A DNA stretch of 64,000 bases from Planococcus sp. PAMC 21323 (lineage in GTDB: Bacteria; Bacillota; Bacilli; Bacillales_A; Planococcaceae). The DNA is taken from assembly GCF_000785555.1 (NCBI RefSeq), contig NZ_CP009129.1, positions 2,728,001 to 2,792,000 on the forward strand, given 5' to 3'. A program made the position numbers and the translations under genes. Shown one piece after another: positions 8,319 to 43,167 of this stretch (the stretch's first letter is position 1; every line of letters begins with the position of its first letter). The notes beneath the pieces are model-generated. The model did no database searches and was not told the origin of the DNA. It worked only from the letters and a program-made list of their open reading frames with translations.

Positions 8319-8343
8319 GTTTGTAATAGTGCACTTTTGCAAA
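8319..8343 (+). repeat. Resolvase crossover-like palindrome (orphan copy a)
   Basis: The two half sites TTTGTAATAGT and ACTTTTGCAAA flank a 2-bp centre. They are a degenerate form of subsite I of the res site at 12995-13022. There is no neighbouring subsite II or III, so this copy alone is an orphan. Confidence 0.55.
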
Positions 8344-8344
8344 A

Positions 8345-8388
8345 AAAAGGAGAAAAGATGCGCAATGGACAGCCTCTTCTCTCCTTTT
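8345..8388 (+). terminator. Hairpin between crossover-like and dif-like sites
   Basis: AAAAGGAGAAAAGA pairs with TCTTCTCTCCTTTT with one bulge. A very similar hairpin lies at 10901-10942, again directly after a crossover-like site and before a dif-like site, so it is part of a repeated unit. It could act as a terminator for the upstream gene. Confidence 0.5.
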
Positions 8389-8399
8389 CACTATAAGTA

Positions 8400-8427
8400 G
8401 CTTCCGATAACTTATGATATGTAAACT
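8400..8427 (+). repeat. dif-like XerC/XerD-type site (copy 2)
   Basis: The arms are GCTTCCGATAA and ATATGTAAACT with a 6-bp centre CTTATG. The right arm differs at one position from the Bacillus dif right arm (TTATGTAAACT). It has the same orientation and spacing as copies 1 and 3. Confidence 0.55.
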
Positions 8428-8526
8428 CATGTCTATTCAAAATACGATCTAATATGTTATATATGTTCTAACATTCTAAAAAGGATGCTCCCTTACTATC
8501 TCTAATTATTGAAAGGAGATTTATTG

Positions 8527-8892
8527 ATGACCTATTTTTATTACATTGCCTCCGATATCGAGTTGACCACGGAAATCTATAAAGAACATGAATTATATTT
8601 TGAAAGATCTAATGAACGGATTAAAGGATTCGACTTTCCTATCCAGCTTGAAATTGATAATGGTATTAATACAAAAGAAGAAGTGGATATTCTGTTTGAG
8701 TACATTCACAAAAAAGCTGAGAATCACAAAAGATGTAGCTTTCAAGTTGCCAAGCTGGTTAATTCTAATAGAGTGCCATTTAAAGTCCTAGAGAAAAAAC
8801 AAGTATTCTTACATAAAATAAAGTCTTCTGAAGAATTATTTTTGTCTGAAGGCCATTTGCTCACTATCAAAAAAGTTCCGGTGGTGTATTAA
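8527..8892 (+). CDS. Hypothetical protein, 121 residues
   Basis: I do not recognise the family. The protein starts MTYFYYIASDIEL and is rich in acidic and aromatic residues. It has no signal peptide or membrane helix and could be a small soluble alpha/beta protein. I chose the ATG at 8527 because a clear AAAGGAG site lies at 8512-8518. The longer frame from 8509 would start inside that site. It is the only gene between the dif-like site at 8400 and the crossover-like palindrome at 8912, so it looks like a single-gene cassette. Confidence 0.7.
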   Translation: MTYFYYIASDIELTTEIYKEHELYFERSNERIKGFDFPIQLEIDNGINTKEEVDILFEYIHKKAENHKRCSFQVAKLVNSNRVPFKVLEKKQVFLHKIKSSEELFLSEGHLLTIKKVPVVY

Positions 8893-8911
8893 AATTGGAG
8901 AGACATATAAG

Positions 8912-8937
8912 CATTCATAAAAGTACACTTTTGCAAA
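8912..8937 (+). repeat. Resolvase crossover-like palindrome (orphan copy b)
   Basis: Half sites ATTCATAAAAGT and ACTTTTGCAAAC around the centre AC match subsite I at 12995-13022 closely. It lies 20 bases after the stop of the small gene at 8527-8892. Confidence 0.6.
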
Positions 8938-8962
8938 CTAAAAAGACAACGAACTCATAATT

Positions 8963-9038
8963 TGAACTGAGCCACTAATGTATCACTTTTTAAATGTCTA
9001 TCACCTGGGGTTCAGTTCACCTCTTCCCCTCTTTTTTT
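8963..9038 (+). terminator. Long-loop terminator-like inverted repeat
   Basis: TGAACTGA (8963-8970) pairs with TCAGTTCA (9012-9019) across a long loop and a run of eight T follows at 9031-9038. It lies between the plus-strand gene at 8527 and the minus-strand gene ending at 9077. Confidence 0.4.
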
Positions 9039-9076
9039 TGCATCCTCTCACAATTCCTGTATATGAAATTAAACCA

Positions 9077-9463
9077 TTATCTCCAACGTTCCATGGCCGC
9101 ATCTAAATTTTCCATCCTCACTGATCCTTTTTGAAGAGGTATCGGACAAATTTGGTTAAATTCATGAATTTTATCGTTGAGCAACGCAACCTTTAATTGC
9201 ACATCGCTTCTCTTTCCTTTGCTAAGTTGAAGAATCGCATCTTGAATCCCATCCCGAATATCATGCTGGAGCTTCAGCCAATGGGGTTTATGCCCTGCCT
9301 CATTTGCTACGCGCTGAAAATGCTGAAAAAGATCTCCTGAAAAATATTCCGCTGACAAAGGCTTTCCAGTACCGGGCAAATCATCCATTCCTCCTGTTTT
9401 AGTATATTCCTTTAAAATGTCTCCAATTAAATCATTCCGTGGATTCGAATCATATTCGCTCAT
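9077..9463 (-). CDS. DUF1992 (DnaJC28-conserved domain) protein
   Basis: The 128-residue protein has the DUF1992 core: a short N-terminal helix, then GKPLSAEYFSGDLFQHFQRVANEAGHKP and a C-terminal helical region. The hallmark reads DDLPGTGKPL, near the conserved family pattern of short chaperone-related proteins. Its function is unknown. In eukaryotes the domain occurs with a J domain, which is absent here. No signal or membrane segment is seen. The ATG at 9463 follows a GGAAG site. It is the second gene of a minus-strand pair with the MFS gene at 9505-10752, 41 bases apart. Confidence 0.8.
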   Translation of the reverse strand: MSEYDSNPRNDLIGDILKEYTKTGGMDDLPGTGKPLSAEYFSGDLFQHFQRVANEAGHKPHWLKLQHDIRDGIQDAILQLSKGKRSDVQLKVALLNDKIHEFNQICPIPLQKGSVRMENLDAAMERWR

Positions 9464-9504
9464 CTGGCATCTTCCTTTCTACAAGAATTGAGTCTATAGA
9501 GTCA

Positions 9505-10752
9505 TTAAACCAACACTTCCTTTTCGACCTCTTCCTCCTCTTCTCGGTAAAATGCAGCTTGTTGTGGTTTCAATACAAAATAGGAAAAGACGATTGATGC
9601 CAGCAGCATAATGCTGGCCAGTCCAACAATAGTGACTCGCAGGGAAATTACATCTGCCAAGATACCGATTCCTAAGATGAATAGGACTTGTACGACACTC
9701 TGCACCAATTGAAAAATGCTGGTGACTCTTCCCATCAGCGCAACCGGAATGTTGTTTTGGTAAAACGTAGCCATGCCAGTATTCATGAAGACATTGAAAA
9801 AACCTAAAATCAAGAAGCCGACTGTAATGGTGAGGAATGACCAAGAAAAAGCATACAGGACATAGCCGACCGCCGTCATCACCACACCGAGCACAATCAT
9901 AAACCGTAAAGAGAACTTTGACGAAAAGATGGTAAGCAGAACGCCGCCACTAACTGAACCAATGCCGGTGATACTGATTAACAAGCTGTAGTCTACTTCG
10001 GAAAGACCGATTACCCGTTGGGTAAACACGACTTCCTGGGCATCCATGGCGAACGAAAAAATCATGACCAGAATAAAACTCAAGTAAATAATAGCGATGT
10101 ATTTGTTTTCAGAAAGGAATTGCTTAACCACTGTAAAATCACTCCATACTTGAGCAACGGTCATCTTAGGAATCGTCTCACGGTCAATCTCTTCTTGCTC
10201 TGGAAGTCCCAAAAGCAGCAGTGCTGCAATCACAAAGAAAATTGCATTGATCCAAAGGGTGGCCTGAATCGAGCTAAGCAGAATTAACGTACCGCCAATG
10301 GCGGGACCGACGATAAATGCACCAGAAGAAGTAACCGAACGAATGGAGTTGAAACGTTTTCTCTTTAATTTCGGCACTAGCATGGTTGTATAGGTGGTCG
10401 AAGAAGGACCAAAAAAAGACTTAGCGATACTCAGGAAAACGAGAATCACGTAAATGCCAACGATGTTGGGAGCATAGGGAATCAATGCGATAAATCCTGC
10501 CCGTAAAAGATAAGTTGCGATAATGACTTTCTTCTTGCTGCGGTAATCGATAAAGCTTCCAGTCCAAAACTTCGTCAAGATGTTGACAATCGGTCCAATG
10601 ATCCAAAGTCCGGCTACTGCTGCAGCAGAACCAGTCATTTGATAAACAATGATATTGATGGCGACCAGGTAAATAAAGTCACCGATGCCAGCAATGCCAA
10701 GTGAAGTCAACAGTATGGCTGGATCTTTCCAATCTTTTAACTTTTTATTCAT
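9505..10752 (-). CDS. MFS transporter, EntS-like exporter
   Basis: The 415-residue protein has about twelve membrane helices and a charged loop after helix 2 (IDYRSKKKV), the usual MFS loop position. The N half contains TSSGAFIVGPAIGGTLI near helix 5, typical of drug/siderophore exporters of the MFS_3 branch. It probably exports a small compound. The substrate is unknown. It ends in a charged tail rich in Glu. The start ATG at 10752 follows AGGAGGCC. It lies between crossover-like sites b (8912) and c (10872), as a two-gene cassette with the DUF1992 gene. Confidence 0.85.
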   Translation of the reverse strand: MNKKLKDWKDPAILLTSLGIAGIGDFIYLVAINIIVYQMTGSAAAVAGLWIIGPIVNILTKFWTGSFIDYRSKKKVIIATYLLRAGFIALIPYAPNIVGIYVILVFLSIAKSFFGPSSTTYTTMLVPKLKRKRFNSIRSVTSSGAFIVGPAIGGTLILLSSIQATLWINAIFFVIAALLLLGLPEQEEIDRETIPKMTVAQVWSDFTVVKQFLSENKYIAIIYLSFILVMIFSFAMDAQEVVFTQRVIGLSEVDYSLLISITGIGSVSGGVLLTIFSSKFSLRFMIVLGVVMTAVGYVLYAFSWSFLTITVGFLILGFFNVFMNTGMATFYQNNIPVALMGRVTSIFQLVQSVVQVLFILGIGILADVISLRVTIVGLASIMLLASIVFSYFVLKPQQAAFYREEEEEVEKEVLV

Positions 10753-10871
10753 TTTGGCCTCCTATAAAATATATTGGGTCTTCTAAAAGCACTGTTATTT
10801 AAGTAACTTATTTAATATTCTTATAATAACATTAATTTCCATCTGCAAGATATACGTAAAGTGTAGCCACG

Positions 10872-10898
10872 CATTCGTAAAAGTACATTTTCACGAAC
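10872..10898 (+). repeat. Resolvase crossover-like palindrome (orphan copy c)
   Basis: Half sites CATTCGTAAAAGT and ATTTTCACGAAC around centre AC are a degenerate copy of res subsite I. It lies between the two MFS cassettes. Confidence 0.6.
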
Positions 10899-10900
10899 AA

Positions 10901-10942
10901 AAAGGAGAAAAGATGTGCTGGCTATAGCCTCTTTTCCCCTTT
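10901..10942. terminator. Hairpin repeated from 8345-8388
   Basis: AAAGGAGAAAAGA pairs with TCTTTTCCCCTTT with one mismatch. On the minus strand it would follow the MFS gene ending at 10998 after the dif-like site, and may serve as its terminator. Confidence 0.5.
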
Positions 10943-10954
10943 AAAATACACGTA

Positions 10955-10982
10955 GCTTCCGATAAGCTGCGATATGTAAACT
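10955..10982 (+). repeat. dif-like XerC/XerD-type site (copy 3)
   Basis: The arms GCTTCCGATAA and ATATGTAAACT are identical to copy 2, but the 6-bp centre (GCTGCG) differs. Identical arms with a different centre is the pattern expected of Xer-type sites. Confidence 0.6.
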
Positions 10983-10997
10983 TACTCCTTGCCACCT

Positions 10998-12272
10998 TTA
11001 CGATTTTTCTTTCCCATTAATGGTCGATGGGTGTAATGACTCAGGAATTTTAAGGTTATAAGATTTATTAGCTTGGACCAATGCAAAGAATTGAGCAAAC
11101 ACTATAAATAATAGGAACAGAAACAGATAGTTTATATTTAGATTGGTTAAAAGCAGACCTCCGATTCCAGGTCCAATCGCATATGCGAAGTTTCCTCCAG
11201 CGCCAATTAAAGAAAAATACGTGGCTTTCAAATTTGTCGGAGCGCTTTTCGCCATGATTGCCTGCATTTTCGGTGCGACTATCATTTCTCCGATTGTGAT
11301 AAATGCAAAAGAAACAAACCATGCGTAGGTAAAATTGTTTAAGAACAACAAAATTAAAAATCCAAGAAAGTAAAGACTGTTACCAAATATGAAGGAGCAC
11401 ACATTGCTAAACCGACTGAAAACGTGCGTTACAATCGGCTGTAAGACGACAATCAAGCCGGTCATCATGGCAACCAGCAATCCAAACAAGCGAACGCCAT
11501 CTTCAAAAGAGCCATTTAAATATTGTGCAATGTTCGTATCGACTTGCGCTTCGATGAAAAAGATAAAGAAATAACTAAGCATCAGCCAGATCAGTACGCG
11601 GTCTTTCGTGAGCAAAGTGAATATTGATCTGGAGCCTGCCAGTTCTTTTTCTGCTTCTACATAGTGAATAGAGATATCTGCTTTTTTGATACGGAATAAA
11701 CCAATCATTGATCCGGCCAACACGACTAAAATAATCGAAAACAAAATAATTGGCGTTTCATAACTCCCCATTTCAATGACCAGTACACCAAGCAACGGCC
11801 CTAAAACCCCGCCCAAATTGATAACCCAGTAGTTATAACCGAAAACCACTTCAGTATGCGCTTTGGGGGTATGCAGCGCAAGAATCGAATTACTAGTCGA
11901 ATTATAAACAGTCCAACCGATCCCGGCGAGGACGGAAAACAGTGCGATAACCAGATAATTTTCGAAGACGATATAACCGATCAAACTCGCCGCTGGAATA
12001 AGCAAAGCGATAGGATAAACTTTATGTATCCCAAACTTATCAGCAATCCTACCACCTAAAACACTGAATACCAAAGAACTGAGGGGGGAAATCCCGATCA
12101 AGACCCCGACTTCTGCAGGCGTGAGGTTCAGTTTTTCGCTGAAATAAATGGCCATGAATGGCATGGACATAAAACGAAATGTATTGAAGATAATATTGGC
12201 CAAAAGCAAAGACCACACCAAAAAAGGAATTTGTCGGTAGCGTTCTTTAATTTTAGACAACTTACTATTCAT
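10998..12272 (-). CDS. MFS transporter (multidrug-type)
   Basis: The protein has about 424 residues and twelve predicted helices. It has the MFS loop motif GGRIADKFG after helix 2, and GIGWTVYNSTSNSIL and YNYWVINLGGVLGP in helices 4-5. This fits the drug-exporter branch of MFS (YfmO/TetA-like). The ATG at 12272 is preferred because GGAGAAG lies just upstream and the longer frame from 12311 lies inside the regulator gene. It overlaps the regulator stop by 8 bases (ATGAATAG), so the two are translationally coupled. The product is likely under control of that regulator. Confidence 0.85.
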   Translation of the reverse strand: MNSKLSKIKERYRQIPFLVWSLLLANIIFNTFRFMSMPFMAIYFSEKLNLTPAEVGVLIGISPLSSLVFSVLGGRIADKFGIHKVYPIALLIPAASLIGYIVFENYLVIALFSVLAGIGWTVYNSTSNSILALHTPKAHTEVVFGYNYWVINLGGVLGPLLGVLVIEMGSYETPIILFSIILVVLAGSMIGLFRIKKADISIHYVEAEKELAGSRSIFTLLTKDRVLIWLMLSYFFIFFIEAQVDTNIAQYLNGSFEDGVRLFGLLVAMMTGLIVVLQPIVTHVFSRFSNVCSFIFGNSLYFLGFLILLFLNNFTYAWFVSFAFITIGEMIVAPKMQAIMAKSAPTNLKATYFSLIGAGGNFAYAIGPGIGGLLLTNLNINYLFLFLLFIVFAQFFALVQANKSYNLKIPESLHPSTINGKEKS

Positions 12273-12876
12273 GCTCTTCTCCATCTTCCGATGAATTGAA
12301 AAAAGGTTCATTCATACGGAAACCGAAGGTGGAAATATAGAACCACTCCCCATCTTCTCCCTCTTCTTCCACCCCTGTTAATTCTTCTAGTAAATTCTGG
12401 TATTTCATGACCCATTCTTTGAATTTTTTCTCCGTCATTTTCACTTCTAGCTGGCTGGAAATTTTACCCCATTCTTTCGGATTTTCCGTTTCTGTTATAA
12501 AGGCAGTATCAGGTGCTTTTAATACTCGTTCTTTGGTCCGTTCCAGCGCAGTGAGAGCCATCAGTTTTCCACCTTCATTTTGTATGGCTTGAAAAGGCAT
12601 TAATTCTTTCGCAGGAATGTAACTTCTTGCGGTCGATCGGTATTGTTTCTCTGTCATATTTCGTTTTTTTGACTCACTGACCAGATAAATCAATTCATTT
12701 TTTTCTAAATCTTTTAAGTGATAATGTATTTTTGAACGCGGAATATTTAACAACTGAGAAAGCTGTTGGCCCGAGTAAGGTTTTTCGATTAGTAAATGCA
12801 GCATCTCCACCCGTAAGGGATCGCTTAAGCTCTTTAACTGGTCTAACTGAGTTAAAAGAAAAATGCTTTGTTTCAT
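12265..12876 (-). CDS. ArsR-type winged-helix regulator of the MFS exporter
   Basis: The 203-residue protein has an N-terminal winged helix (residues 10-75: LKSLSDPLRVEMLHLL, YSGQQLSQLLNIPRSKIHYHLKDLEKNELI) of the ArsR type and a C-terminal acidic region of unknown ligand role. No cysteine pair for metals is visible, so a small-molecule ligand is more likely. The ATG at 12876 follows a strong AAAGGAGG. It forms an operon with the MFS gene at 10998-12272. A 42-bp inverted repeat upstream (12931-12972) is the likely operator for self-regulation. Confidence 0.85.
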   Translation of the reverse strand: MKQSIFLLTQLDQLKSLSDPLRVEMLHLLIEKPYSGQQLSQLLNIPRSKIHYHLKDLEKNELIYLVSESKKRNMTEKQYRSTARSYIPAKELMPFQAIQNEGGKLMALTALERTKERVLKAPDTAFITETENPKEWGKISSQLEVKMTEKKFKEWVMKYQNLLEELTGVEEEGEDGEWFYISTFGFRMNEPFFNSSEDGEEHE

Positions 12877-12930
12877 TTCATGTCCTCCTTTTTAGACTTG
12901 TCTATTTTTACTGACATAAAGATATCATTT

Positions 12931-12972
12931 TATATTCTCTCTTGTCAATAAAATTTGACATGAGAGAATATA
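12931..12972 (-). promoter_or_regulatory. Palindromic operator/promoter of the regulator-MFS operon
   Basis: TATATTCTCTC (12931-12941) and GAGAGAATATA (12962-12972) form a perfect 11-bp inverted repeat with a 20-base spacer. Within the spacer TGTCAA and TTGACA form a second perfect repeat. Read on the minus strand, the first of these gives a TTGACA -35 box. It is the only large palindrome before the regulator gene. Confidence 0.55.
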
Positions 12973-12994
12973 AAAATAGATTATTCTATTAAAC

Positions 12995-13117
12995 CGTTCG
13001 TAAAAGTACACTTTTGCGAACGCTTTGAAAACGGCTGAAAACGGCTGAAAATGACGTTCGTAAATGTATGAAATGACTTTACGAACGTTCACGAAATTGC
13101 ACACACTTTTACGAACG
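12995..13117 (+). promoter_or_regulatory. Three-part res site of the serine resolvase
   Basis: There are three inverted-repeat subsites, each with CGTTCG/CGAACG-type ends: I at 12995-13022 (28 bp, half sites CGTTCGTAAAAGT and ACTTTTGCGAACG), II at 13055-13087 (33 bp) and III at 13086-13117 (32 bp). A tandem AAAACGGCTG repeat lies between I and II. This is the classic layout of a resolvase res, directly upstream of the gene at 13164. A TATAAT at 13127-13132 suggests that the gene's promoter overlaps subsite III, which gives autoregulation. Confidence 0.8.
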
Positions 13118-13163
13118 GTTTTCAGGTATAATGAGAGGAAATAATCGTTTATAGAGGTGAATT

Positions 13164-13781
13164 ATGGAACATCGCAAATTTGGTTACATACGCGTCAGCA
13201 GCAAAGACCAAAATGAAGGCCGTCAGTTGGAAGCTATGAAAAAAATGGGCATCACTGATCGGGATATTTATTTGGACAAACAAAGCGGAAAGAGTTTCGA
13301 GCGAGCGAACTATCAGTTGCTCAAACGGATTATCCGTAAAGGCGATATTTTATATATTCACTCACTGGATCGGTTTGGCCGAAACAAAGAAGAGATCCTT
13401 CAGGAGTGGAATGACCTCACGAAAAATATTGAAGCGGATATTGTGGTGTTGGATATGCCGTTATTGGATACGACCCAATACAAAGACAGCATGGGAACGT
13501 TCATTGCGGATCTGGTGTTGCAGATTCTTTCCTGGATGGCAGAAGAAGAACGGGAACGCATCAGGAAACGGCAGCGTGAAGGAATCGATTTGGCACTGCA
13601 AAATGGTATTCAGTTTGGCAGACCCGCAGTTTATGTTTCAGAGGAATTCAAAGAGGTATATAGAAAATGGAAAGCTAAAGAACTGACAGCAGTGGAAGCC
13701 ATGCAACAGGCTGGAGTTAAAAAGACCAGTTTTTATAAATTGGTAAGAGCACTCGAAGAACAGGCAGCAAATCTATTATAA
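13164..13781 (+). CDS. Serine recombinase, plasmid-resolvase type
   Basis: The 205-residue protein has the resolvase catalytic domain with the active serine in YIRVSSKDQ (residues 7-15), then LDRFGRNKEEIL and EEERERIRKRQREGI (E helix), followed by a C-terminal helix-turn-helix at about 165-195. It resembles the Bin/Sin-type resolvases of Gram-positive plasmids. It would resolve dimers or exchange DNA between res sites. It sits directly downstream of its three-subsite res (12995-13117). Orphan subsite-I copies at 8319, 8912, 10872 and 17206 suggest that it, or a related enzyme, has shuffled neighbouring cassettes. Confidence 0.9.
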   Translation: MEHRKFGYIRVSSKDQNEGRQLEAMKKMGITDRDIYLDKQSGKSFERANYQLLKRIIRKGDILYIHSLDRFGRNKEEILQEWNDLTKNIEADIVVLDMPLLDTTQYKDSMGTFIADLVLQILSWMAEEERERIRKRQREGIDLALQNGIQFGRPAVYVSEEFKEVYRKWKAKELTAVEAMQQAGVKKTSFYKLVRALEEQAANLL

Positions 13782-13795
13782 TAGAAGAAACTTCA

Positions 13796-13847
13796 AAAAA
13801 AGAATGGCACTAAAGTTAACGAATAACTTCAGTGCCGTTCTTTTTTT
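13796..13847 (+). terminator. Strong terminator after the resolvase
   Basis: AAAGAATGGCACT and AGTTA pair with TAACT and AGTGCCGTTCTTT with one bulge. A-run before and T-run after make it bidirectional. Confidence 0.85.
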
Positions 13848-13868
13848 GTTCTAGTACTTGTTATTTTT

Positions 13869-14273
13869 CTAAGATTCTATCTCTGGCAAGGATGGCGGAG
13901 TATAATTTTTATGTACATATAATTCTTCTGCAATCTCTCCGTTTTCCTTCTTTCTATACAAAAGTGTTAATCTGGTTTGAGTTTTTTCATAATCATTATT
14001 CAATCTAGGAAAGAAAGAGATGAGGATATAGTCGTTTGACAACTTGTCTTTTTTCAAAAATAAATTCAAGTAATATTCTTTGGAGTCTTGTCTTATCTTT
14101 AATCGTAATAAATAATCAGCATCTATTTTACTGTATGCTTTTTTCTTCAAAAAAATGAAGCTTGCTTCTCCAACGTCAATTCCTTCATCAAAAATAGGCT
14201 TAATTAGAGGGGAAAACTTAATCCTATTTTCAATAGAATGCTCAAACTGACCATGTATATAAGTAAGCGTCAA
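13869..14273 (-). CDS. Hypothetical protein, probably N-terminally truncated
   Basis: The 134-residue product is not a recognised family. It reads as a mixed alpha/beta cytoplasmic protein ending KNYTPPSLPEIES. The first possible codon is a TTG at 14273 with no ribosome site. A stop lies only five codons further upstream, and the start sits inside a perfect inverted repeat (14263-14289). I infer that the true 5' part was lost at this repeat during rearrangement, so expression is doubtful. No membrane or signal segments are seen. Confidence 0.45.
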   Translation of the reverse strand: MTLTYIHGQFEHSIENRIKFSPLIKPIFDEGIDVGEASFIFLKKKAYSKIDADYLLRLKIRQDSKEYYLNLFLKKDKLSNDYILISFFPRLNNDYEKTQTRLTLLYRKKENGEIAEELYVHKNYTPPSLPEIES

Positions 14274-14289
14274 ATAATTGGACGCTTAC
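14263..14289. repeat. Perfect 9-bp inverted repeat at a gene break
   Basis: GTAAGCGTC (14263-14271) and GACGCTTAC (14281-14289) with a 9-base spacer. Its right half with flank, ATTGGACGCTTAC, recurs near 27030. Confidence 0.5.
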
Positions 14290-14378
14290 GTTTATGCAAA
14301 ATCCATAATCTGTTTTTATTCTACAAAATTCCATTAAATAATAGGGATTTATAGTTATTAAAAATTTTAGCCAGAATT

Positions 14379-14406
14379 AAAAAACAGACGAAATGTTATT
14401 CGTCTG
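14379..14406 (-). terminator. Terminator for the gene at 14577-15014
   Basis: CAGACGAA pairs with TTCGTCTG around a 6-base loop. Read on the minus strand it is followed by six T. Confidence 0.7.
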
Positions 14407-14576
14407 CTTTACTATCAATGTTTAATAGAGTTTTTCTTGCAGCACATAGCATTGAACTTTAAAGAATTCGATAATCATTTAGAAGATTTTATTAAAATAG
14501 AAATATGAAAATATAATAAAACATCTTCGAGTTAAAATTCCAGACGTTATATTATAAACACTGGACATCTTAACTA

Positions 14577-15014
14577 CTAAAAATTATCTAACCATTCACC
14601 GTCTTGTTTATTTAAATGAACTATCAATTCTGTTTTTGCACTTAAGATACAAACTTCAAAATCTTGCACATTCAATAATTCAACACCATTTTTAAGTAAA
14701 CTAAAATTCCATAGTGTACCTGTTGATTTACTAGGAGTCAAACACATATATTTTCGAATAAATGCTTTTGAACTCTCATTTAGTTCACTAGTATACTCAG
14801 TTGCCCACTCTAAATTACTCCAAGGTTTTTGAGTTGTTTTCAGTTGTAGACGTTCAAATTCTAATTTCCCTGTAAGTAACGGATTTTCTTCCTCATATTC
14901 TCCATTCGGAAAAACTACACAAAAACTATCTGCGTGTTCGAGCGCGGCTTTTAAAACCATATTCCAAGTAGAAAAGGAAGAAGAAATGTCTTCTAATACA
15001 ATAAAGTTTTCCAT
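14577..15014 (-). CDS. Hypothetical protein, 145 residues
   Basis: I do not recognise the family. The protein starts MENFIVLEDISSSFSTWNMVL and looks soluble, with alternating beta and helical stretches and no signal peptide. A strong GGAGG site 8 bases before the ATG at 15014 and a terminator at 14379-14406 support a real, single-gene unit. It lies between two resolvase genes in the accessory region. Confidence 0.75.
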   Translation of the reverse strand: MENFIVLEDISSSFSTWNMVLKAALEHADSFCVVFPNGEYEEENPLLTGKLEFERLQLKTTQKPWSNLEWATEYTSELNESSKAFIRKYMCLTPSKSTGTLWNFSLLKNGVELLNVQDFEVCILSAKTELIVHLNKQDGEWLDNF

Positions 15015-15139
15015 AAATAACCTCCATTATAATTTGCTATATTATAATTCTTTAACTAGTGAATATTCATTTTTTATAATTAGAAATTAAAATGAAAAGT
15101 AAAGAGAGCTGTAAACTATTTTTTTAAAATATACAATTT

Positions 15140-15955
15140 CTACATATCTTCTTTGTATGGACCTGTGTATATAGGTGTATATATTGGTGTTGGTGTTGGA
15201 GTTAATGTAGTTCCTGGTGTTGGTGTTACGGTAGTAGTTGGTTCTTCGTATTCTACTATTGGAAGTTCAGTTATATTAGTAATATCGTCTCCAAGTGTAC
15301 TGTTGACGACTGTACCGCCTAAAGTTTCCGACTCTATCTCTACTGAAGGGTCATAACCGGATATATCATTAGGTGGTTGAGGTTCAGTGATATATAGCGA
15401 CTCATTATATTCTACCAGTATCTCTGTATCAACAGAAGCTGGTCTTACAGCATATCCACCTGTAAGTAACTTATAAAGAATTACAGGAACTATGGCGAAT
15501 ATTGAAAATAAACTAGTTTGATCATTAAAAGAAAGACTACTTTTTGCAAAAGACTTCATTGCATTTGCTCCTACTTTTGATAAGTCGTTCCAATTGGAAG
15601 TGGAATTACACGTATCTATAACAGTTTTCTTTTTCTTCGTTTCGTAGATGTAAATACATGTTTTGGACTTCTTAATGTATCTAACAACATGAAAATTATA
15701 ATATGGTTTCCATTGGCCTCTTAAATCTTTTTTGTCTAAATGAACATTAGTATGCGGTGTGGAATTACTCGGGAATTTTGGGCCTGCCCAACCAGGATGG
15801 ACATTGGTAACATATAGTTTCATACCACCCACAATTTTCGGACCATATGCTAGCTTTGCACTTGCTGCGGAAACACTTTGAGAGTGGGGAAAAACGTAAA
15901 CTGAACTAAACGTAAAAGTGAGAAGAAGTAAAAAAATCAAAAACCTTTTTTTCAT
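15140..15955 (-). CDS. Secreted protein of unknown function with a Thr-Pro-rich tail
   Basis: The 271-residue protein has a signal peptide (MKKRFLIFLLLLTFTF, cleavage near SVSAASA around residue 32). A mature domain follows, with WAGPKFPSN and CIYIYETKKKKT, a hydrophobic stretch near 150-170, and a C-terminal low-complexity Thr/Pro/Tyr tail (TPTPGTTLTPTPTPIYTP). The tail has no LPXTG signal. The pair of cysteines (CIYIYE... CNSTS) could form a disulfide. I do not know a family for it. The ATG at 15955 follows an AGGAGG site, so the start is secure. Genes with similar repeat tails are often surface exposed. Confidence 0.75.
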   Translation of the reverse strand: MKKRFLIFLLLLTFTFSSVYVFPHSQSVSAASAKLAYGPKIVGGMKLYVTNVHPGWAGPKFPSNSTPHTNVHLDKKDLRGQWKPYYNFHVVRYIKKSKTCIYIYETKKKKTVIDTCNSTSNWNDLSKVGANAMKSFAKSSLSFNDQTSLFSIFAIVPVILYKLLTGGYAVRPASVDTEILVEYNESLYITEPQPPNDISGYDPSVEIESETLGGTVVNSTLGDDITNITELPIVEYEEPTTTVTPTPGTTLTPTPTPIYTPIYTGPYKEDM

Positions 15956-16268
15956 AAAATTAACCTCCTATTTTAATTTAAAAATCCCGAAAAACTAAAA
16001 TTGAAAATAAATCCAAAGCACCAATTTAATTCTTCTTATTTACAATAAACTTTTGAAAAATATTTGTATATCGCATTTTTTTGATGAATATAACATTACT
16101 CATCAGTCTGGGAAATTGATTAATGATAATAAGCTTTTAAGTACAATCTTAAAATAGACCACTTGTGGTTTATTTCTACTGTTAAGTTGTAATTACTTTA
16201 ACTTTTGTAATAGAAGATTATCACTACTAACGATAAAGAGAAAAATTTACAACAATATATATAAAACT
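15956..16268. other. AT-rich intergenic DNA
   Basis: I see no coding potential. It contains the promoter side of the secreted-protein gene and ends at the 46-bp palindrome. Nothing else is recognisable. Confidence 0.5.
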
Positions 16269-16314
16269 AAAAGAGGCATAACATGGATTTTAAAATCCAT
16301 GTTATGCCTCTTTT
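16269..16314 (-). terminator. Perfect 46-bp palindrome after the second resolvase
   Basis: The 23-bp half AAAAGAGGCATAACATGG plus ATTTT is mirrored perfectly with no loop (16269-16291 and 16292-16314), flanked by T-rich DNA. A hairpin of this type would terminate the resolvase at 16334. A perfect, loopless palindrome is unusual for a terminator. Confidence 0.65.
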
Positions 16315-16333
16315 AATTTTAGAAAGTGCAAGT

Positions 16334-16888
16334 TTATTGTTTTTCCAAGTAACGATAAATAGTGGTACGAGAAACGCCCCATCTTTCAGCCACATCTTTA
16401 ATCGGTGTCCCACCTTGAATCAACGAACGCATCATTTCAATATCTTTTGTGCCAAACTTCTCCGGTCGTCCACCGAGACGCCCTCTTGCTCTGGCAGCTG
16501 TCCGTCCGGCAGCCGAAAGTTCCTCAATCAAGTTCCGTTCGAATTCCGCAAATGCAGCGAACAAGTGGAACATCAATTGTCCAGTTGCATTGCGTTTATC
16601 CATCGTCAAGTTTTCCTGCAAACTGTGGAAGGTAACTCCCCGTTCATTTAAGGCATTTACAAGTTGAATCAAATCCTGCATGTTTCTTCCTAACCGATCC
16701 AATCGCCAAACAACAATCGTATCTCCTTCACGTGCATAGTTAATCGCTTCTTCTAAACCTGGACGCTGTTTTTTTGTGCCACTCATTTTATCGTGAAATG
16801 TTTTATCGCAGCCGTAAGCAGTTAACGCATCCATCTGTAAATCCAAATTTTGTAATCCCGTTGAGACCCGTGCATATCCAATTAACAT
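16334..16888 (-). CDS. tnpR: Tn3-type serine resolvase/invertase
   Basis: The 184-residue protein has the full resolvase domain: catalytic serine in YARVSTGLQN (residues 5-14), VVWRLDRLGRNMQDL, and the E helix FAAFAEFERNLI. A C-terminal Hin-type helix-turn-helix (LGGRPEKF, IKDVAERWGVSRTTIYRYL) follows. It is close to TnpR of Tn3-family elements and DNA invertases of the Pin type. No tnpA accompanies it, so it is an orphan. A decayed relative lies at 6803. The ATG at 16888 is the usual start MLIGYARVS. Confidence 0.9.
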   Translation of the reverse strand: MLIGYARVSTGLQNLDLQMDALTAYGCDKTFHDKMSGTKKQRPGLEEAINYAREGDTIVVWRLDRLGRNMQDLIQLVNALNERGVTFHSLQENLTMDKRNATGQLMFHLFAAFAEFERNLIEELSAAGRTAARARGRLGGRPEKFGTKDIEMMRSLIQGGTPIKDVAERWGVSRTTIYRYLEKQ

Positions 16889-16997
16889 CCAATCACTCTT
16901 TCGTCTTTTTCGTTAAATTAATTGTACCATAAGATAAAAAACCAATGGTTAGTGAACATAGAATAATGTACAGAGTTTTATTACACGTAACACATAA

Positions 16998-17042
16998 AAA
17001 AAGATCCTTTTCTAATCACCCAATGCCGTGTCCAGAAAAGGA
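16998..17042 (-). terminator. Terminator of a lost minus-strand gene
   Basis: TCCTTTTCT (17005-17013) pairs with AGAAAAGGA (17034-17042) and, on the minus strand, is followed by a seven-T run. It lies just after the gene fragment 17094-17205 and upstream of the second resolvase. Confidence 0.5.
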
Positions 17043-17093
17043 CGAGTTTTGGAACAGAGAAGGTAAGTGGACTTTTCAAAATTGAAGATATCT

Positions 17094-17205
17094 CTATGAA
17101 CGTGCCTCCTCTGCAAATGACGAAATCATCATAAGAGTCATCGTGGTCTGTTCTGTTAAAAGTACTATGACATTTTTTGATGCTGTTCCCTCTATATAAT
17201 AGAGT
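17094..17205 (-). pseudogene. 3' fragment of an unknown gene, cut at a crossover-like site
   Basis: A 36-codon open stretch on the minus strand ends in TAG at 17094. It contains the plausible protein sequence ASKNVIVLLTEQTTMTLMM, and a terminator follows. Its upstream end coincides with the crossover-like palindrome at 17206-17232. I infer that recombination there separated it from the rest of the gene. Coding potential is judged by eye only. Confidence 0.35.
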
Positions 17206-17232
17206 GTTCTTAAAGGTGGACTTTTACGAACG
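17206..17232 (+). repeat. Resolvase crossover-like palindrome (orphan copy e)
   Basis: Half sites GTTCTTAAAGGT and ACTTTTACGAACG around centre GG. The right half is identical to the left half of subsite I read on the other strand; the left half is degenerate. It marks the left border of the CD-NTase/SLATT block. Confidence 0.5.
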
Positions 17233-17441
17233 ATTTGATTTGAAAAATTAACTTCATATTCTTTTTTAGTTGGGAATTTATGCTAAAATGAGTATATTGA
17301 ATCGTGAAAAATGTATAATTACTTTGGTAATCTACTGCCCTTTTCAGTGAGCTATGTATTTTAAAATTTCAACAATGATATATCATGTGAGTTGTATTTC
17401 AAGTTCATTAATCGTTATATCAAATCAGGAGGTTATGTCCA

Positions 17442-18319
17442 GTGTCTGTAAGTGATTACTTTTCTACATTTTGTTCTAATCTAAGAATGAGTAGTGATAA
17501 TGTTAACAAAATACAATATCGCTATAAACAAATAACTAAACGGATAAATACAGCGTATAGAGGAAGTACATCTGAGACGGCAAATAGTTTTTATGTAGGT
17601 TCTTACGGTCGTGGAACAAAAATATGGACCAGTGATATAGATGTAATGGTTCAATTACCTTATCAAACGTATAAAAAATTTAACGATTATACTGGTAATG
17701 GACAATCTGCTTTATTGCAAGAAGTAAAAAATGAATTGGAAAAGACATATAGCACATCGCATCTAAATGGGGATGGACAAGTGATTGCAATTAACTTTTC
17801 GGACGGAATCAGTTTTGAAATTGTTCCTGCATTTATCAATGACGGTGGTAGCTACACTTACCCAGACACCAACAATGGGGGGAGCTGGAAATCTACTGAT
17901 CCAAAAAAGAAATTGAGGCCATGTATAATTTAAATAAAACTACAAATAAAAATTTAAAAAGATTGTGCAGAATGGCACGCTCTTGGAAAGCCGAATGTAG
18001 CGTTCCTATAAGTGGGATCTTAATTGACACGCTTGCTTATAGGTTCTTGAGCGATTGGGAACATAAAGATAAATCTTTTCTTTACTATGATTATATGAGT
18101 AGAGATTTCTTTAAATTTTTGAAGGATTTAGATAAAGAAAAGCTATACTGGTTAGCACCGGGCAGTGGTCGTTATGTTTGGAAGGGCGGCAATTTTCAAA
18201 ATAAAGCTTCTGTAGCTTATAATCTTTCTCTAGAAGCTATTAATCATGAATCTAATGATCGGCCCTACTCATCTAAGGTAAAGTGGAGGGAAATATATGG
18301 AACGAAATTCCCTGGATAG
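17442..18319 (+). pseudogene. CD-NTase (SMODS-type) of a CBASS-like system, frameshifted
   Basis: The protein is a DncV/cGAS-like nucleotidyltransferase that would make a cyclic oligonucleotide signal. The first frame (17442-17933, GTG start with AGGAGG 9 bases upstream) carries GSYGRGT (53-59), the metal pair DID (65-67) and E126 in FEIVPA. The second frame (17921-18319) holds the C-terminal alpha-helical half (NLKRLCRMARSWK). The frame is lost at a run of six A (17903-17908). One additional A would restore PKKEIEAMYNLN across the junction. This may be a sequencing error, a true inactivating deletion, or a phase-variable tract. It overlaps the SLATT gene by 23 bases, so the pair forms one operon. 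Confidence 0.8.
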
Positions 18320-18869
18320 TCAAGGTTATAAACTGGAATCCCAAATTAGAGAAGCATATGGACGATTAGTTTATACATTAACTTGTCATAATAAAATCGT
18401 TCACCGACTTATGTCGAAAAATAATACAATCAAAGTTTGGCAGATTATATTGTCAGCCTTAACCACAGGAAGTTTCTTGGCAATTATTTCGTCTTACGAG
18501 GTAATTGCCAGTATTGTGGGAGCTGTTATTTCCATTGCTTTGTTGATATTAAATGCCTATACCAAAAACTTCGACTTAGTTGAAACAGCTCAGTCACATC
18601 AGAAAGCTGCTGATGCACTGTGGAAGATAAGGGAGGAATACGTTTCATTACTCACAGATTTTGACTTGCTAGAGTCAACTGATGTAATGGAACGAAGAGA
18701 TGATTTGCAAAATAGGACAGCAGAAATTTATGCTCAATCCCCAAGAACCGATGCGAAGAGTTATAAGGAAGCACAAAAAGCTCTAAAAACAGAAGAAGAG
18801 CAGACTTTTTCAGAGAAAGAGATTGATGTGATGCTTCCAAACTCGATAAGAAGAGAAAATAGAAATTAA
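18297..18869 (+). CDS. SLATT-domain two-helix membrane effector
   Basis: The 190-residue protein has two membrane helices at about 42-65 and 68-88, preceded by a helical N terminus (LESQIREAYGRLVYTLTCHNK) and followed by a long coiled helical region with LWKIREEYVSLLTDF. This is the SLATT architecture (SMODS and SLOG-associating two-TM effectors), thought to form pores in the membrane when triggered by a nucleotide signal. A GGAGGG site precedes the ATG at 18297 inside the CD-NTase gene. The role, abortive defence against phage, is inferred from the pairing with a CD-NTase. Confidence 0.85.
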   Translation: MERNSLDSQGYKLESQIREAYGRLVYTLTCHNKIVHRLMSKNNTIKVWQIILSALTTGSFLAIISSYEVIASIVGAVISIALLILNAYTKNFDLVETAQSHQKAADALWKIREEYVSLLTDFDLLESTDVMERRDDLQNRTAEIYAQSPRTDAKSYKEAQKALKTEEEQTFSEKEIDVMLPNSIRRENRN

Positions 18870-19006
18870 GTTTTAAATCTTTATCTATTTGAAGAACTAG
18901 TTCAATTTAAACAAAGCTTTCCAAACAACGAGAAAATAAATTAATCAAAATTCTCTTGAAAATGATCTTTGCAACAGCTTGATTTTTAAACTCTATAAGA
19001 GGGTTC

Positions 19007-19035
19007 AGTTAACATATCACCGGATAATCGGTAGC
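19007..19035 (-). repeat. dif-like XerC/XerD-type site (copy 4, inverted)
   Basis: Read on the minus strand the arms are GCTACCGATTA and ATATGTTAACT with a 7-bp centre (TCCGGTG). The orientation is opposite to copies 1-3. It lies 138 bases after the SLATT gene. Confidence 0.45.
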
Positions 19036-19059
19036 TGCGATGGACCAAGTATATAATTC

Positions 19060-19106
19060 AAGAAACCCAGCAACCTTTTTATACTACGGTTATTGGGTTT
19101 CTTTAA
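19060..19106 (+). terminator. Terminator-like hairpin
   Basis: AAGAAACCCA and AACC pair with GGTT and TGGGTTTCTT. A T-rich tail follows. It would end the CD-NTase/SLATT transcript. The stretch 18870-19258 has no gene. Confidence 0.7.
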
Positions 19107-19182
19107 ATCCTATGCAAATTATCTCTTAAAGTAAAAAAATATAACTACTGGTAGTTGAATGAGTAGATATCTTGATTGTAAA

Positions 19183-19220
19183 ACAGGACAGGGCTGCCGC
19201 AAAAGATACAGCTGTCCTGT
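19183..19220 (-). terminator. Terminator of the tyrosine recombinase gene
   Basis: ACAGGACAG (19183-19191) and CTGTCCTGT (19212-19220) are a perfect 9-bp stem, with a T-rich stretch following on the minus strand. Confidence 0.55.
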
Positions 19221-19258
19221 ACTATTTTTAATTTCTTAAATTCATTTCAATGTTGTGT

Positions 19259-20155
19259 TTATAAATACTTGTCTACGGTTACTTCGGACACTGTAAGATA
19301 GTGCTGAATTAACGTTTCAAGTGATTGATGTCCTGTTTGCTGTGCAATAGTCGGTAAATCAGCGCCTGCTGCATGCATGGCCACCACTTGGCTTTTCCGG
19401 AAATTGTATCCCGTAAGCCCAGTCCAGCGTTGCAAAAACTGATAATACCCGATTTCACTGATTGCTGTGCTTTCATAGCGTCCATTCTTATACACTCTCC
19501 CCACGAAATAATTGTCTGCTTTAAGATGGTATTCACGTATATAAACATCGATTGCATAGATAACTTCCGGCGTGAGTCGCTTAGTGTGCCATCTTTTTTG
19601 CTTCTTCAAATAAACATGTACGCATTTGTTTTTCAAATCGAAATCGTTTATTTTTAAACGCACCATTTCGCTTGGTCTGTTAGCGGTTATTAGATTAACT
19701 AGACAAATCGCCTTTGCTCTTATCGGGAGACGATCGAGCATATCCGTCAACTCTTTCTTATCAATGGCTGACTTTCCTCGAACTTGAGTCAAATGAGCGT
19801 ATTGATCTTCCTGATACATTTTTCGTATCCCCGAAAGCTCATATGCCACTCCTGCTTCTCCTTTGAGCTCTATTTTATGAATGACACTCAAGTATTTTCT
19901 AATAGCTGCTAATCGGCGTTCCCACGTTGTTTTCTTAACTTGCTGTTCAGTCAGTGAGATGTACAAATAATCAAGCATGGCCTCTGTGCCAATTACTTGA
20001 CCTGTGCTGCAGCAATAGTTCTTGTATCTCCGAATATCGCCCTCATATTGTTTTGGGATTTCCTCCATCTTTTTTTCAATATGAATTTTTCTGTTGTGGT
20101 AACGTTTCTGAATCTCCAGAGTGTCCTGGTAAATTGCCAATTTGAAACCTGTCAT
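19259..20155 (-). CDS. Tyrosine recombinase (phage-integrase type)
   Basis: The 298-residue protein has a core-binding helical domain at about 30-130 and a catalytic domain from about 145 on. The catalytic residues visible are Arg in ANRPSEMV, Lys in KKQKRWHTK, the YNFRKSQ region in place of HxxR, His in TGHQSLETL and the nucleophile Tyr in QHYLTVS. It cuts and joins short core sites, as integrases of phages, transposons or mobile cassettes do. The missing first His of the HxxR box is a departure from the norm. No excisionase is adjacent, and the dif-like site at 19007 lies downstream. Confidence 0.85.
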   Translation of the reverse strand: MTGFKLAIYQDTLEIQKRYHNRKIHIEKKMEEIPKQYEGDIRRYKNYCCSTGQVIGTEAMLDYLYISLTEQQVKKTTWERRLAAIRKYLSVIHKIELKGEAGVAYELSGIRKMYQEDQYAHLTQVRGKSAIDKKELTDMLDRLPIRAKAICLVNLITANRPSEMVRLKINDFDLKNKCVHVYLKKQKRWHTKRLTPEVIYAIDVYIREYHLKADNYFVGRVYKNGRYESTAISEIGYYQFLQRWTGLTGYNFRKSQVVAMHAAGADLPTIAQQTGHQSLETLIQHYLTVSEVTVDKYL

Positions 20156-20242
20156 TTTTCTTCATCCCCATTTCTTTTCAAAATCATTGTGAAACAACAT
20201 TTATGATAGATTGATTTTGAGAAAAGTAATGGGACAAAGCAA

Positions 20243-20284
20243 AAGAGCCAGAGAAGAAAATTGACTCCTTCTTCTCTGACTCTT
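20243..20284. terminator. Strong hairpin upstream of the recombinase
   Basis: AAGAGCCAGAGAAGAA pairs with TTCTTCTCTGACTCTT with one mismatch. It has no obvious gene to end on either strand, so it may be left over from a removed neighbour. The rest of 20156-20492 contains AT-rich promoter-like DNA only. Confidence 0.5.
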
Positions 20285-20492
20285 ATAAACCATCGTTTTT
20301 GATAGTAATATGATTCATGAATTGTGTTTTAAATTTTACTCAGACTTACCTTACTAATAAATAAAATATCTACTAAGACCATTATAGAAAAAATTTACAT
20401 ATAATTAACTAACTAGTCTATAATTAATCAAACGAATAGCAATACTTATTATTAGGTACTAATTAAATACAATCCAAAAAGGGGCTGGACTT

Positions 20493-20713
20493 ATGAGTGT
20501 TTTAAAAGTTTATTCGGTATTACTGAAAAGAACGAAGTAAAAAGCAAACAAAAAGATAATTCAAAAAAAAGTACAAGAATCATTGATGTAGATACTTCCC
20601 CCTCTTTGACTATTTCAGCATCTCCTATAGGTGACATTACAGGCAGTACAGCAACAGATTTTTATGTATATGTAAATTGTCAATTCAAGTCGAACATGGT
20701 AAGAAATTTATGA
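20493..20713 (+). pseudogene. Small unknown ORF, frameshifted and interrupted by an IS
   Basis: After a good AAGGGGCTGG site, the ATG at 20493 opens a frame that stops after 15 codons. Adding one T in the T run near 20500 would give MSVFKSLFGITEKNEVKSK and then a long open frame through DTSPSLTISASPIGDITG. This is cut at 20671 by the IS30-type element and ends inside it at 20713. The product is unknown. Given the bacteriocin locus next door, a small peptide gene is possible but unproven. Confidence 0.4.
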
Positions 20714-21347
20714 ATACCTCAAAGGCCGTATTGTAATTCACTTGCCGATGACGGTGTCGACTTCCCAATGGCCACTTGGCTTCGAGGCGCCAAACGTGCA
20801 TGGATTTTTTTCAGACGAGGCAGCTTGCCCCGGATCACCACTTCATTGTTTTTCAACTTCTGTCCTTTACGGATCAGAAGCTTTGGGGACAGCTTGAACA
20901 GGCCAAGTGCCGCGTAACAATAGATGCTCGAGACACTAATTGGAAAGGGTTTCTTATGCGTTTTCCAGTGCCGTCCAACGAGGCATTCTGGTGACAAGCC
21001 CAACTTCAGTTTGGACAGGATATAATCGACGTCTTCTTGATTGACCGATCGTCTAGCGCCACAGTTTTCACGTTCGGCCTCGTAATCAGCCTGTGCCAAC
21101 AGAGCGTTGTATGGCTTACAGCGTTTCAATTCATAGTGGATGGTGCTTTTACTTCGTTTCAACTGTTTCGCCATATAGGACAACGATTTCTCTTCGAGGC
21201 AATAACGCTCGATTAGCACACGTTCCCATGATATCATGTGGGCATTGCTCATTTTGGGACACTCCTTTAGTTGATTCGCGTTAACTACGGTGTACCCACT
21301 TGAGCTATTTTATTTTCTAACCGTTCGACTTAATATGATAATCTACA
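20671..21347. mobile_element. Internally deleted IS30-family element (copy 1)
   Basis: The ends are 25-bp imperfect inverted repeats (20671-20695 and 21323-21347), about 20 of 25 matching, both ending TCAAGTCGAAC/TTAAGTCGAAC. An ATA triplet flanks both ends as a possible 3-bp target duplication. The element is about 677 bp, far shorter than a full IS30 element (about 1.0-1.2 kb), so the catalytic part has been deleted. Confidence 0.75.
20719..21252 (-). pseudogene. Truncated IS30-type transposase
   Basis: The 177-residue reading has the IS30 N-terminal helix-turn-helix (LEEKSLSYMAKQLKRSKSTIHYELKR) and the following domain (SPECLVGRHW). After about residue 160 the sequence no longer fits, and the DDE catalytic core is missing. 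It cannot transpose by itself. Confidence 0.8.
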
Positions 21348-21519
21348 ATAAGAAAGAAAACTCAATTTACCATTTGGTAACAGTTAAGCCTTCTTTCATT
21401 CTGTACTTAAATTTTCGCAAAATCACATTACAATATATTGCATTCTACAACTTCGAATGACAGCTTTTCAAAAAAATAATAGAAAATTTTTCACTTCTAA
21501 CAAGAAGCATATATTAAAA

Positions 21520-23682: not shown

Positions 23683-23703
23683 AAAATATGTCCTCCAAAT
23701 TAA

Positions 23704-23741
23704 AAAGTAAAGAACGATATTAATATACCGTTCTTTACTTT
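23704..23741 (-). terminator. Attenuator hairpin between bacteriocin gene and transporter
   Basis: AAAGTAAAGAACG (23704-23716) and CGTTCTTTACTTT (23729-23741) are a perfect 13-bp stem. On the minus strand a TTTTT run follows, and then the GGAGG of the transporter. It likely reduces transcription into the exporter relative to the peptide gene. Confidence 0.75.
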
Positions 23742-23746
23742 GTGTT

Positions 23747-24088
23747 TTACACTTCGAACCATGGACTATGGTAGTATTGTGGACTAACTAAAACCATACC
23801 TTTTTTATCTCGACTAGGAGTTCCATAAAATGTAGACGATGCGCTTTTGTTAGTACCTAAATAGTATGATTTATTCCCCACTATAGTACCAGTTGCATAC
23901 ACAACCCTTAATTGATAATTGCCTCCCTCGGACGCATTGCTCGTTCCAACTGAAGAAATTCCATTAATGTCATACTTAAACGCTGAACTCCAAGGACCCT
24001 GAGCTGCAAATGCAGGCATTGTTGATACTAGAAGCAAAGATACTGCAAAAATTGTGCTAAAAATACCTAAACCTAATTTCTTTTTCAA
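23747..24088 (-). CDS. Secreted bacteriocin-like precursor (lactococcin-972-like)
   Basis: The 113-residue product has a signal peptide (MKKKLGLGIFSTIFAVSLLL, cleavage after AFA at about 29) and a mature part of about 84 residues without cysteine, rich in Gly, Ser and Tyr, starting AQGPWSSAF and ending HSPWFEV. Lactococcin 972 has the same layout: Sec signal, small cysteine-free mature peptide, aromatic C terminus, and an adjacent fused ABC exporter. The similarity is by architecture and context, not proven by alignment. The start is a TTG at 24088 with a strong GGGGAGG. It is cotranscribed with the membrane protein at 24129. Confidence 0.7.
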   Translation of the reverse strand: MKKKLGLGIFSTIFAVSLLLVSTMPAFAAQGPWSSAFKYDINGISSVGTSNASEGGNYQLRVVYATGTIVGNKSYYLGTNKSASSTFYGTPSRDKKGMVLVSPQYYHSPWFEV

Positions 24089-24128
24089 AAAATCACCTCC
24101 CCTAAGTTTAAGAACTAAGAAATATTTT

Positions 24129-24596: not shown

Positions 24597-24826
24597 TCGG
24601 CCACTTCCTATCGACATTGAATAACTTTTATTTTTCAACAAAATAATTGAAAAAACTATCAAAATATCTAATTACAGAAATAAAATGTTTTGATTATATA
24701 GTGATTTTTGTTTACACGATTTTTACCAAAATTATCTTTCTTTAAACATTTGAATTTGCTTTAATTAAAACTTAAAGTAAGATTTATCTATGATGCAATG
24801 GAAATTTATAGGAAAAAGGTGATGGT

Positions 24827-25869: not shown

Positions 25870-25920
25870 ATTATTCCTCCTAGACATTTAACTTATAAAT
25901 AATAAATTAACAGATTAAGT

Positions 25921-25956
25921 GGGAATAAAATATGTATTTATGCATATTTTATTCCC
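25921..25956 (-). promoter_or_regulatory. PlcR-box operator within a perfect palindrome
   Basis: TATGTATTTATGCATA at 25931-25946 fits the known PlcR box (TATGNAWWWWTNCATA) at every defined position. It lies inside a longer perfect repeat: GGGAATAAAATATG (25921-25934), an 8-base spacer, and CATATTTTATTCCC (25943-25956). It lies upstream of the PapR-like gene on the minus strand, so self-induction is expected. Confidence 0.8.
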
Positions 25957-43156: not shown

Positions 43157-43167
43157 TAATCATAATG

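Follow-up and report, generated by a model that had tools for sequence, protein, structure and literature searches.

In Acinetobacter, gene modules bordered by dif-like sites (dif or pdif modules) occur on plasmids and chromosomes and are moved by XerCD; the border sites are reported to have variable spacers of 6 base pairs (bp), exchange takes place at equal or nearly equal spacers, and chromosomes carry islands of such modules (PMC13141974, PMC12907356). In standard modules the sites are inversely oriented, and C and D modules alternate (PMC13141974). The present study concerns a stretch of 64,000 nucleotides (hereafter the window), namely positions 2728001-2792000 of the 3.2-megabase chromosome of Planococcus sp. 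PAMC 21323, in which a res site in front of a serine resolvase gene is accompanied by solitary, "orphan" copies of res subsite I. Comparison with other loci of the genus leads us to think that these orphans are most probably exchange joints of an array of heterospecific sites that is polar, ordered and common to Planococcus chromosomes and plasmids. A previous, sequence-only reading of the window had described the orphan copies; what it missed is that they are one of three site families within an ordered array, the others being dif-like and lox-like sites. A search of the open-access literature, which left most subscription papers outside its scope, found no paper on such arrays in Planococcus.

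Loci and sites

The genus search covered 46 genomes around the host genome, and sites were scanned in 36 loci comprising seven genomes (plasmid pPS15-1 included), two P. maritimus and one MB-3u-03 plasmid record. P. versutus L10.15, our genome G002, has the plasmids pPS15-1 and pPS15-2. The statistics leave out the host-genome cluster at 1547728-1550068, locus L011, and loci from the contig search that partly duplicate fetched genomes. Subsite I follows the pattern TTCGTAAAAGTACACTTTTGCGAA, and only copies with centre AC entered the counts of order, borders and context. The lox-like family is a 34-bp near-palindrome, TGAATGTAACTTAA-N6-TTAAGTTACATTCA, with a 6-bp centre. By rules drawn up after inspection of the data, dif-like centres were sorted into types A (TCC-, TTC-), B (-GTC), C (-TG) and D (GC-CG), and lox-like centres into types E (TTAG- and TTACAC), F (TTGCTA and four relatives), G (TTC-) and H (-TGCAC and the like); 26 untyped lox-like sites were dropped from the order test.

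Chance palindromes are ruled out as an explanation by shuffling and by reversed patterns: 100 shuffles of the window contained no subsite I match, and the reversed-pattern controls for the site patterns gave 0 matches throughout. The whole host genome holds ten matches to subsite I at up to three mismatches, the window res included, and none to the reversed subsite I pattern at the same limit. It further contains 32 lox-like sites and 23 dif-like matches (at up to three mismatches), the latter mostly clustered, and the match at 1532612 is probably the chromosomal dif. In the 36 loci we counted 155 dif-like sites; the loci were picked because they hold sites, so that such frequencies are not genome-wide rates.

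Order and polarity of the arrays

On comparison of the loci, the dif-like, lox-like and subsite I or res sites have a common polarity in arrays throughout the genus, and their order is largely fixed. Adjacent sites, taken over all families, lie on the same strand in 394 of 410 pairs and on opposite strands in 16. Adjacent typed lox-like sites of one strand follow the sequence E>F>G>H in 130 cases, run backward in ten and are equal in 16; the forward share of unequal pairs is thus 0.93, compared with a maximum of 0.61 in 1000 shuffles of the types within loci. The corresponding order of adjacent dif-like sites, A>B>C>D, is followed forward in 43 pairs, backward in seven, with two equal, a forward share of 0.86 against a maximum of 0.75 under the same shuffling. 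The lox-like sites come after the last dif-like site in most clusters of the host genome, and in chromosomal arrays a dif-like site precedes the first lox-like site by 142-145 bp in 14 of 16 close pairs. The array of the window has no lox-like site at up to four mismatches.

At up to two mismatches, lox-like sites were found in 45 of the 46 Planococcus genomes and in one of 215 other genomes of the order searched, and the named genomes that share them are nearly all Planococcus or Planomicrobium. Outside Planococcus we noted four sites in a genome from a different genus of the same family (G090), four on a Gracilibacillus contig and one in an Exiguobacterium genome (L035 and L093).

The dif-like sites are also oriented with respect to the replication arms. 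In the host genome those left of the chromosomal dif all point one way (15 of 15) and those right of it the other way (7 of 7), and counts made by hand for three further genomes, with the origin assumed opposite dif and plasmid contigs left out, gave 16 of 16 (G028), 12 of 13 (G014) and 17 of 17 (G034). P. versutus has two opposed arrays within about 20 kilobases, so that one of them breaks this rule.

Borders of shared blocks

The sequence-only reading had proposed to compare cassette borders between strains and had considered that blocks which never vary would speak against exchange; between the 36 loci the blocks do differ. We defined shared blocks by a length of at least 200 bp and an identity of at least 85%, and found that 237 of the 601 countable block ends lie on a site in both partners. 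When the sites were shifted, the mean was 0.6 such ends (maximum 5), and random intergenic places caught a mean of 3.3 (maximum 12), in 200 runs each. Of the paired ends, 145 fall on lox-like sites, 33 on dif-like sites and 59 on subsite I; among blocks of at least 98% identity, 23 of 39 ends are paired in this way, and in 62 blocks each of the four ends falls on a site. The partners tend to agree in centre as well: typed lox-like ends are alike in type in 89 of 120 pairs (shuffled mean 30.3, maximum 48 in 2000 runs), and dif-like ends agree in 25 of the 27 pairs with both types named.

The 59 ends on subsite I, compared with a mean of 0.5 and a maximum of 4 for intergenic places, stem from 40 distinct copies, and they lend weight to the earlier suggestion that the orphans may be scars of exchange or targets of a relaxed recombinase. 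In 14 of the 59, one partner has a full res and the other an orphan, with the array side in common; ten distinct full res and six distinct orphans take part, and one such pair lies within the host genome itself (own_1036k, 97.5%).

The res site and the orphan copies of the window

The res in front of the resolvase gene has its subsite I at 12995..13022 and its subsites II and III at 13023..13117 (both on the plus strand, the limits of the latter set by eye). Within the 105 bp beyond subsite I there are three further half-sites, each at up to one mismatch, which places the site in the class of full res and agrees with the three-subsite structure of the sequence-only reading. The gene that follows, at 13164..13781 (plus strand), encodes a serine resolvase of 205 amino acids (aa; PF00239) that is 100% identical over 203 aa to that of pPS15-1.

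This res is, as far as the alignments tell, the joint of a chromosomal module with plasmid DNA. To its left, a chromosomal module of P. versutus matches window 10956-13008 at 90% identity, and this homology ends at 13008. To its right lies a plasmid-derived block (12995..27089, plus strand) that is 99.7-99.97% identical to part of pPS15-1, the plasmid homology starting at 12986-12991. Past the counterpart of 13008 the P. versutus module continues with a hairpin and then a type B dif-like site. The window, the P. versutus module and pPS15-1 have in common the 14 bp CGTTCGTAAAAGTA, which is the left half of subsite I plus one base of the centre, and the flanks past subsite I at the window joint are unrelated.

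Two of the four orphan copies that the sequence-only reading had listed are real: those at 8914..8937 (plus strand, centre AC, two mismatches) and 10874..10897 (plus strand, centre AC, three mismatches). A third, at 8320..8343 (plus strand), is a weaker variant with centre GC and four mismatches. The fourth, at 17207..17230 on the minus strand, lacks support and was rejected as a member of the system: its centre (GG/CC) is unmatched, it has four to five mismatches, and the plasmid-derived block passes it unbroken and without a border, so that it probably lies outside the system.

The hairpin and dif-like site said to be repeated beside two of the copies were recovered. The copy at 8320 is followed by a hairpin (8345..8389, fold z -3.61) and a dif-like site with centre CTTATG (type C, 8401..8426), the copy at 10874 by a hairpin (10899..10942, fold z -3.70) and a dif-like site with centre GCTGCG (type D, 10956..10981), all on the plus strand and both dif-like sites without a mismatch to the pattern; the repeat 8341-8427, which includes the first hairpin, is 78% identical to 10896-10982. 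A further dif-like site, with centre TCCTGA (type A, 771..796, plus strand, three mismatches), lies in the left part of the array. Transcription terminators were considered for the two hairpins and set aside: the terminator scan does not list them, so that we claim only the fold. The copy at 8914 has no dif-like site after it and belongs to the class with subsite I only. The 86 AC-centred copies of the 36 loci divide into 24 within a full res, 31 with a dif-like site after them, 27 on their own and four in front of a lox-like site.

The same sites delimit the blocks that the window has in common with P. versutus. Window 8914-10982 is found there split into two neighbouring pieces, 93.5% and 96.6% identical, the outer ends of which are a subsite I and a type D dif-like site, and the left border at 8914 is an orphan subsite I in P. 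versutus too. The blocks 9526-10982 and 10956-13008 meet at the dif-like site at 10956. Window 8400-8892 is 95% identical to P. versutus; its left end falls on the dif-like site at 8401, and its right end is 22 bp short of 8914.

Recombinases and plasmids

All of the five small lox-bearing plasmid contigs that were read first encode a tyrosine recombinase of 187 aa, which has a match in 20 of the 46 genomes, in 18 of them at an identity of at least 90%. The R, K, H-x-x-R, H and Y positions, which we take to be the active site of the tyrosine recombinase family, are conserved in the 12 aligned copies. Lox-like sites are present in 13 of the 15 plasmid records that encode this recombinase or a homologue; the first site lies 202-206 bp upstream of the start codon in five of them and 390-967 bp upstream in eight. 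On the small plasmids the gene points away from the array, and small gene units lie between the sites. The records of homologues from Bacillus velezensis and Rummeliibacillus contained inverted repeats and no lox-like site of the Planococcus sequence. In most pairs of a plasmid with a chromosomal array, the upstream stretch of about 105-119 bp that ends at the first lox-like site is 69-84% alike, and some pairs match over shorter stretches alone. Modules of the small plasmids are found again in chromosomal arrays, where 37 of 110 countable ends lie on a site in both partners, and a G-H module present on three small plasmids matches a chromosomal G-H module at 98.1-98.2% identity.

We infer the enzymes of the lox-like and dif-like sites from gene neighbourhood and resemblance. 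Outside the arrays lie two strong tyrosine recombinase genes, which we take for XerC and XerD. For the lox-like sites, a XerS-like plasmid recombinase is an alternative to the 187-aa protein; it is unbroken and near full length in nine of the 46 genomes (at least 81%) and in two more (46-47%), and broken or partial elsewhere, by a count made by eye. We prefer the 187-aa recombinase because of its position at the start of the array. The plasmid-derived block of the window encodes yet another tyrosine recombinase, of 298 aa (19259..20155, minus strand; PF00589), which is 91.7% identical to pPS15-1 in three pieces; it matched seven plasmid records and was set aside.

Related backbones and resolvases were seen further afield. 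The Lysinibacillus capsici plasmid pFN9D (L185) has a Planococcus-type backbone in tandem, with six recombinase places and one lox-like site in the 12 kilobases examined, and carries the resistance genes cfr and lsa(B). Resolvases 93.5-94.8% identical to that of the window, over 84-97% of the length, occur on plasmids of Staphylococcus aureus, Proteus, Providencia, Pasteurella and E. coli.

Genes between the sites

Between the dif-like site at 8401 and the subsite I at 8914 lies a small open reading frame (ORF; 8509..8892, plus strand), also present in P. versutus and in genome G015, which had no Pfam or NCBIfam match at an E-value of 0.001. The next genes are all on the minus strand and encode a DnaJ-C28 conserved domain protein (9077..9463; PF09350, 27.2 bits at a cut-off of 27), two major facilitator superfamily transporters (9505..10752 and 10998..12311; both PF07690) and an ArsR-type regulator (12265..12876; PF01022). 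Farther to the right, window 41514-43246 is 95.4% identical to pPS15-1 53151-54878, where the plasmid has an AbiEi/AbiEii-type pair annotated.

The family scan covered 57 of 72 listed array ORFs (of the other 15, 11 lie in the window, and six of those were scanned separately). Among the 57 proteins acetyltransferases recur (four), the other Pfam families appear mostly once, and a few proteins match models of defence systems.

A possible mechanism

The array would be read in the order dif-like A, B, C, D, then lox-like E, F, G, H, then res or subsite I, with each interval between sites serving as a slot for one or a few genes. The enzymes are presumably the XerC and XerD of the host for the dif-like sites, the plasmid-borne 187-aa recombinase for the lox-like sites and the resolvase for res and subsite I. 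Two arrays that meet in one cell would recombine mainly at sites with like centres, and two such exchanges would swap the slot between them, much as engineered cassette exchange does. The order of the array would be kept because unlike centres rarely recombine. A full res would exchange at subsite I with an orphan, which would have the resolvase act at a lone subsite I, as the pairing of full res with orphans at block ends suggests. In the window, a plasmid related to pPS15-1 would have joined the chromosomal module in this way, leaving the res at 12995 as the joint.

Discussion

Several observations weigh against the reading of the orphans as exchange joints. Block ends off paired sites number 364 of 601, and the ends are counted pairwise among the same loci, with modules reused, so that they are not independent events; this reuse of loci is kept in both border nulls and lost in the lox-like type shuffle. 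Of the 120 typed lox-like end pairs, 31 are unlike in type. At the window joint, the counterpart in P. versutus is decayed (seven of 24 positions mismatched, centre AA, the left half alone intact); the 14 ends that pair a full res with an orphan do not depend on it. At the opposite end of the P. versutus module the dif-like site is of type A, as against type D in the window, and no known site was found where the plasmid-derived block stops on the right, at 27089. One of the 46 Planococcus genomes, G035, has no lox-like site at up to two mismatches. The 187-aa recombinase is assigned to its sites by gene neighbourhood only; the host genome has no match to it, and contains the XerS-like recombinase only as pieces (1460502-1461105, inside an array). 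Moreover, the Tn3 resolvase is reported to recombine efficiently only full res sites that stand in direct repeat on one molecule, and to discriminate sharply against res sites located on different DNA molecules, on which it is typically at least a thousandfold slower (PMC9943657).

Some of these points would suit a reading of the arrays as relics, in which exchange belongs to the past and the sites of the host genome are by now inert scars. The host lacks the 187-aa recombinase, and many sites have several mismatches. We nevertheless regard this explanation as unlikely, given that a 3813-bp block with sites at all four ends is 99.9% identical between species (genomes G015 and G034), that the plasmid-derived block reaches 99.97%, and that the recombinase is matched in 20 of the 46 genomes.

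The plasmid sites cer and psi have accessory sequences, and a lone subsite I beside a dif-like site might likewise be an accessory sequence of Xer recombination, its likeness to res being secondary. The 31 AC-centred copies that precede a dif-like site fit this idea, as do the two classes of spacing between them, 44-62 bp (15 pairs) and 76-84 bp (23 pairs), which were counted at slightly laxer mismatch limits. Such a role would leave out the 27 copies that have neither a dif-like nor a lox-like site nor further res half-sites nearby; blocks end on subsite I itself, and at the window joint the switch from chromosomal module to plasmid takes place at subsite I, all of which makes an accessory role quite improbable as the explanation of the orphans. 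That ordinary homologous recombination or insertion sequence elements moved the blocks, with the sites as conserved intergenic stops of the alignment, is very improbable: most sites are indeed intergenic (461 of 488) and many block ends lie off paired sites, but random intergenic places catch hardly any of the ends that the sites do, the flanks past subsite I at the window joint are unrelated, and lox-like ends agree in centre type far more often than under shuffling.

If the orphans are exchange joints in an ordered array, this would explain how the genus keeps a fast-changing store of genes unscrambled. We know of no natural counterpart of heterospecific cassette exchange, and the arrays would provide one, together with a compact 187-aa recombinase and candidate 34-bp sites that are mutually selective. 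An old question would also become testable, namely whether a resolvase under strict topological control uses a lone crossover site in nature.

Comparison with known systems

The components of the arrays are each of a known kind, and for the ordered array of three families we found no counterpart. Like the dif modules of Acinetobacter, Planococcus modules are bordered by dif-like sites, on which 33 paired block ends fall; unlike them, nearly all adjacent sites point the same way, the centre types are ordered, and two further site families belong to the array. The plasmid recombinase gene adjoins the first site and the array, at the closest in the five records with 202-206 bp between them, which resembles the integron, whereas the sites are 34-bp near-palindromes with ordered, unlike 6-bp centres; against the integron integrase (IntI) model TIGR02249 the 187-aa protein scored 32.3 bits, below the cut-off of 265. 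With Tn3-type systems the arrays share a resolvase N-terminal domain and a res of several subsites in front of the gene, and they differ from these in having full res away from a resolvase gene and lone subsite I copies at block borders. Engineered recombinase-mediated cassette exchange works with a slot between two unlike sites, and replacing its content takes two pairs of like sites. The slots of Planococcus likewise lie between unlike sites, in arrays that are natural, comprise many slots and would involve three recombinase families. On balance we incline to see in these arrays a third natural cassette platform beside integrons and dif modules, in which an ordered code of centres would address the slots, three recombinase families would serve them, and plasmids and chromosomes would trade slot for slot with order and orientation kept.

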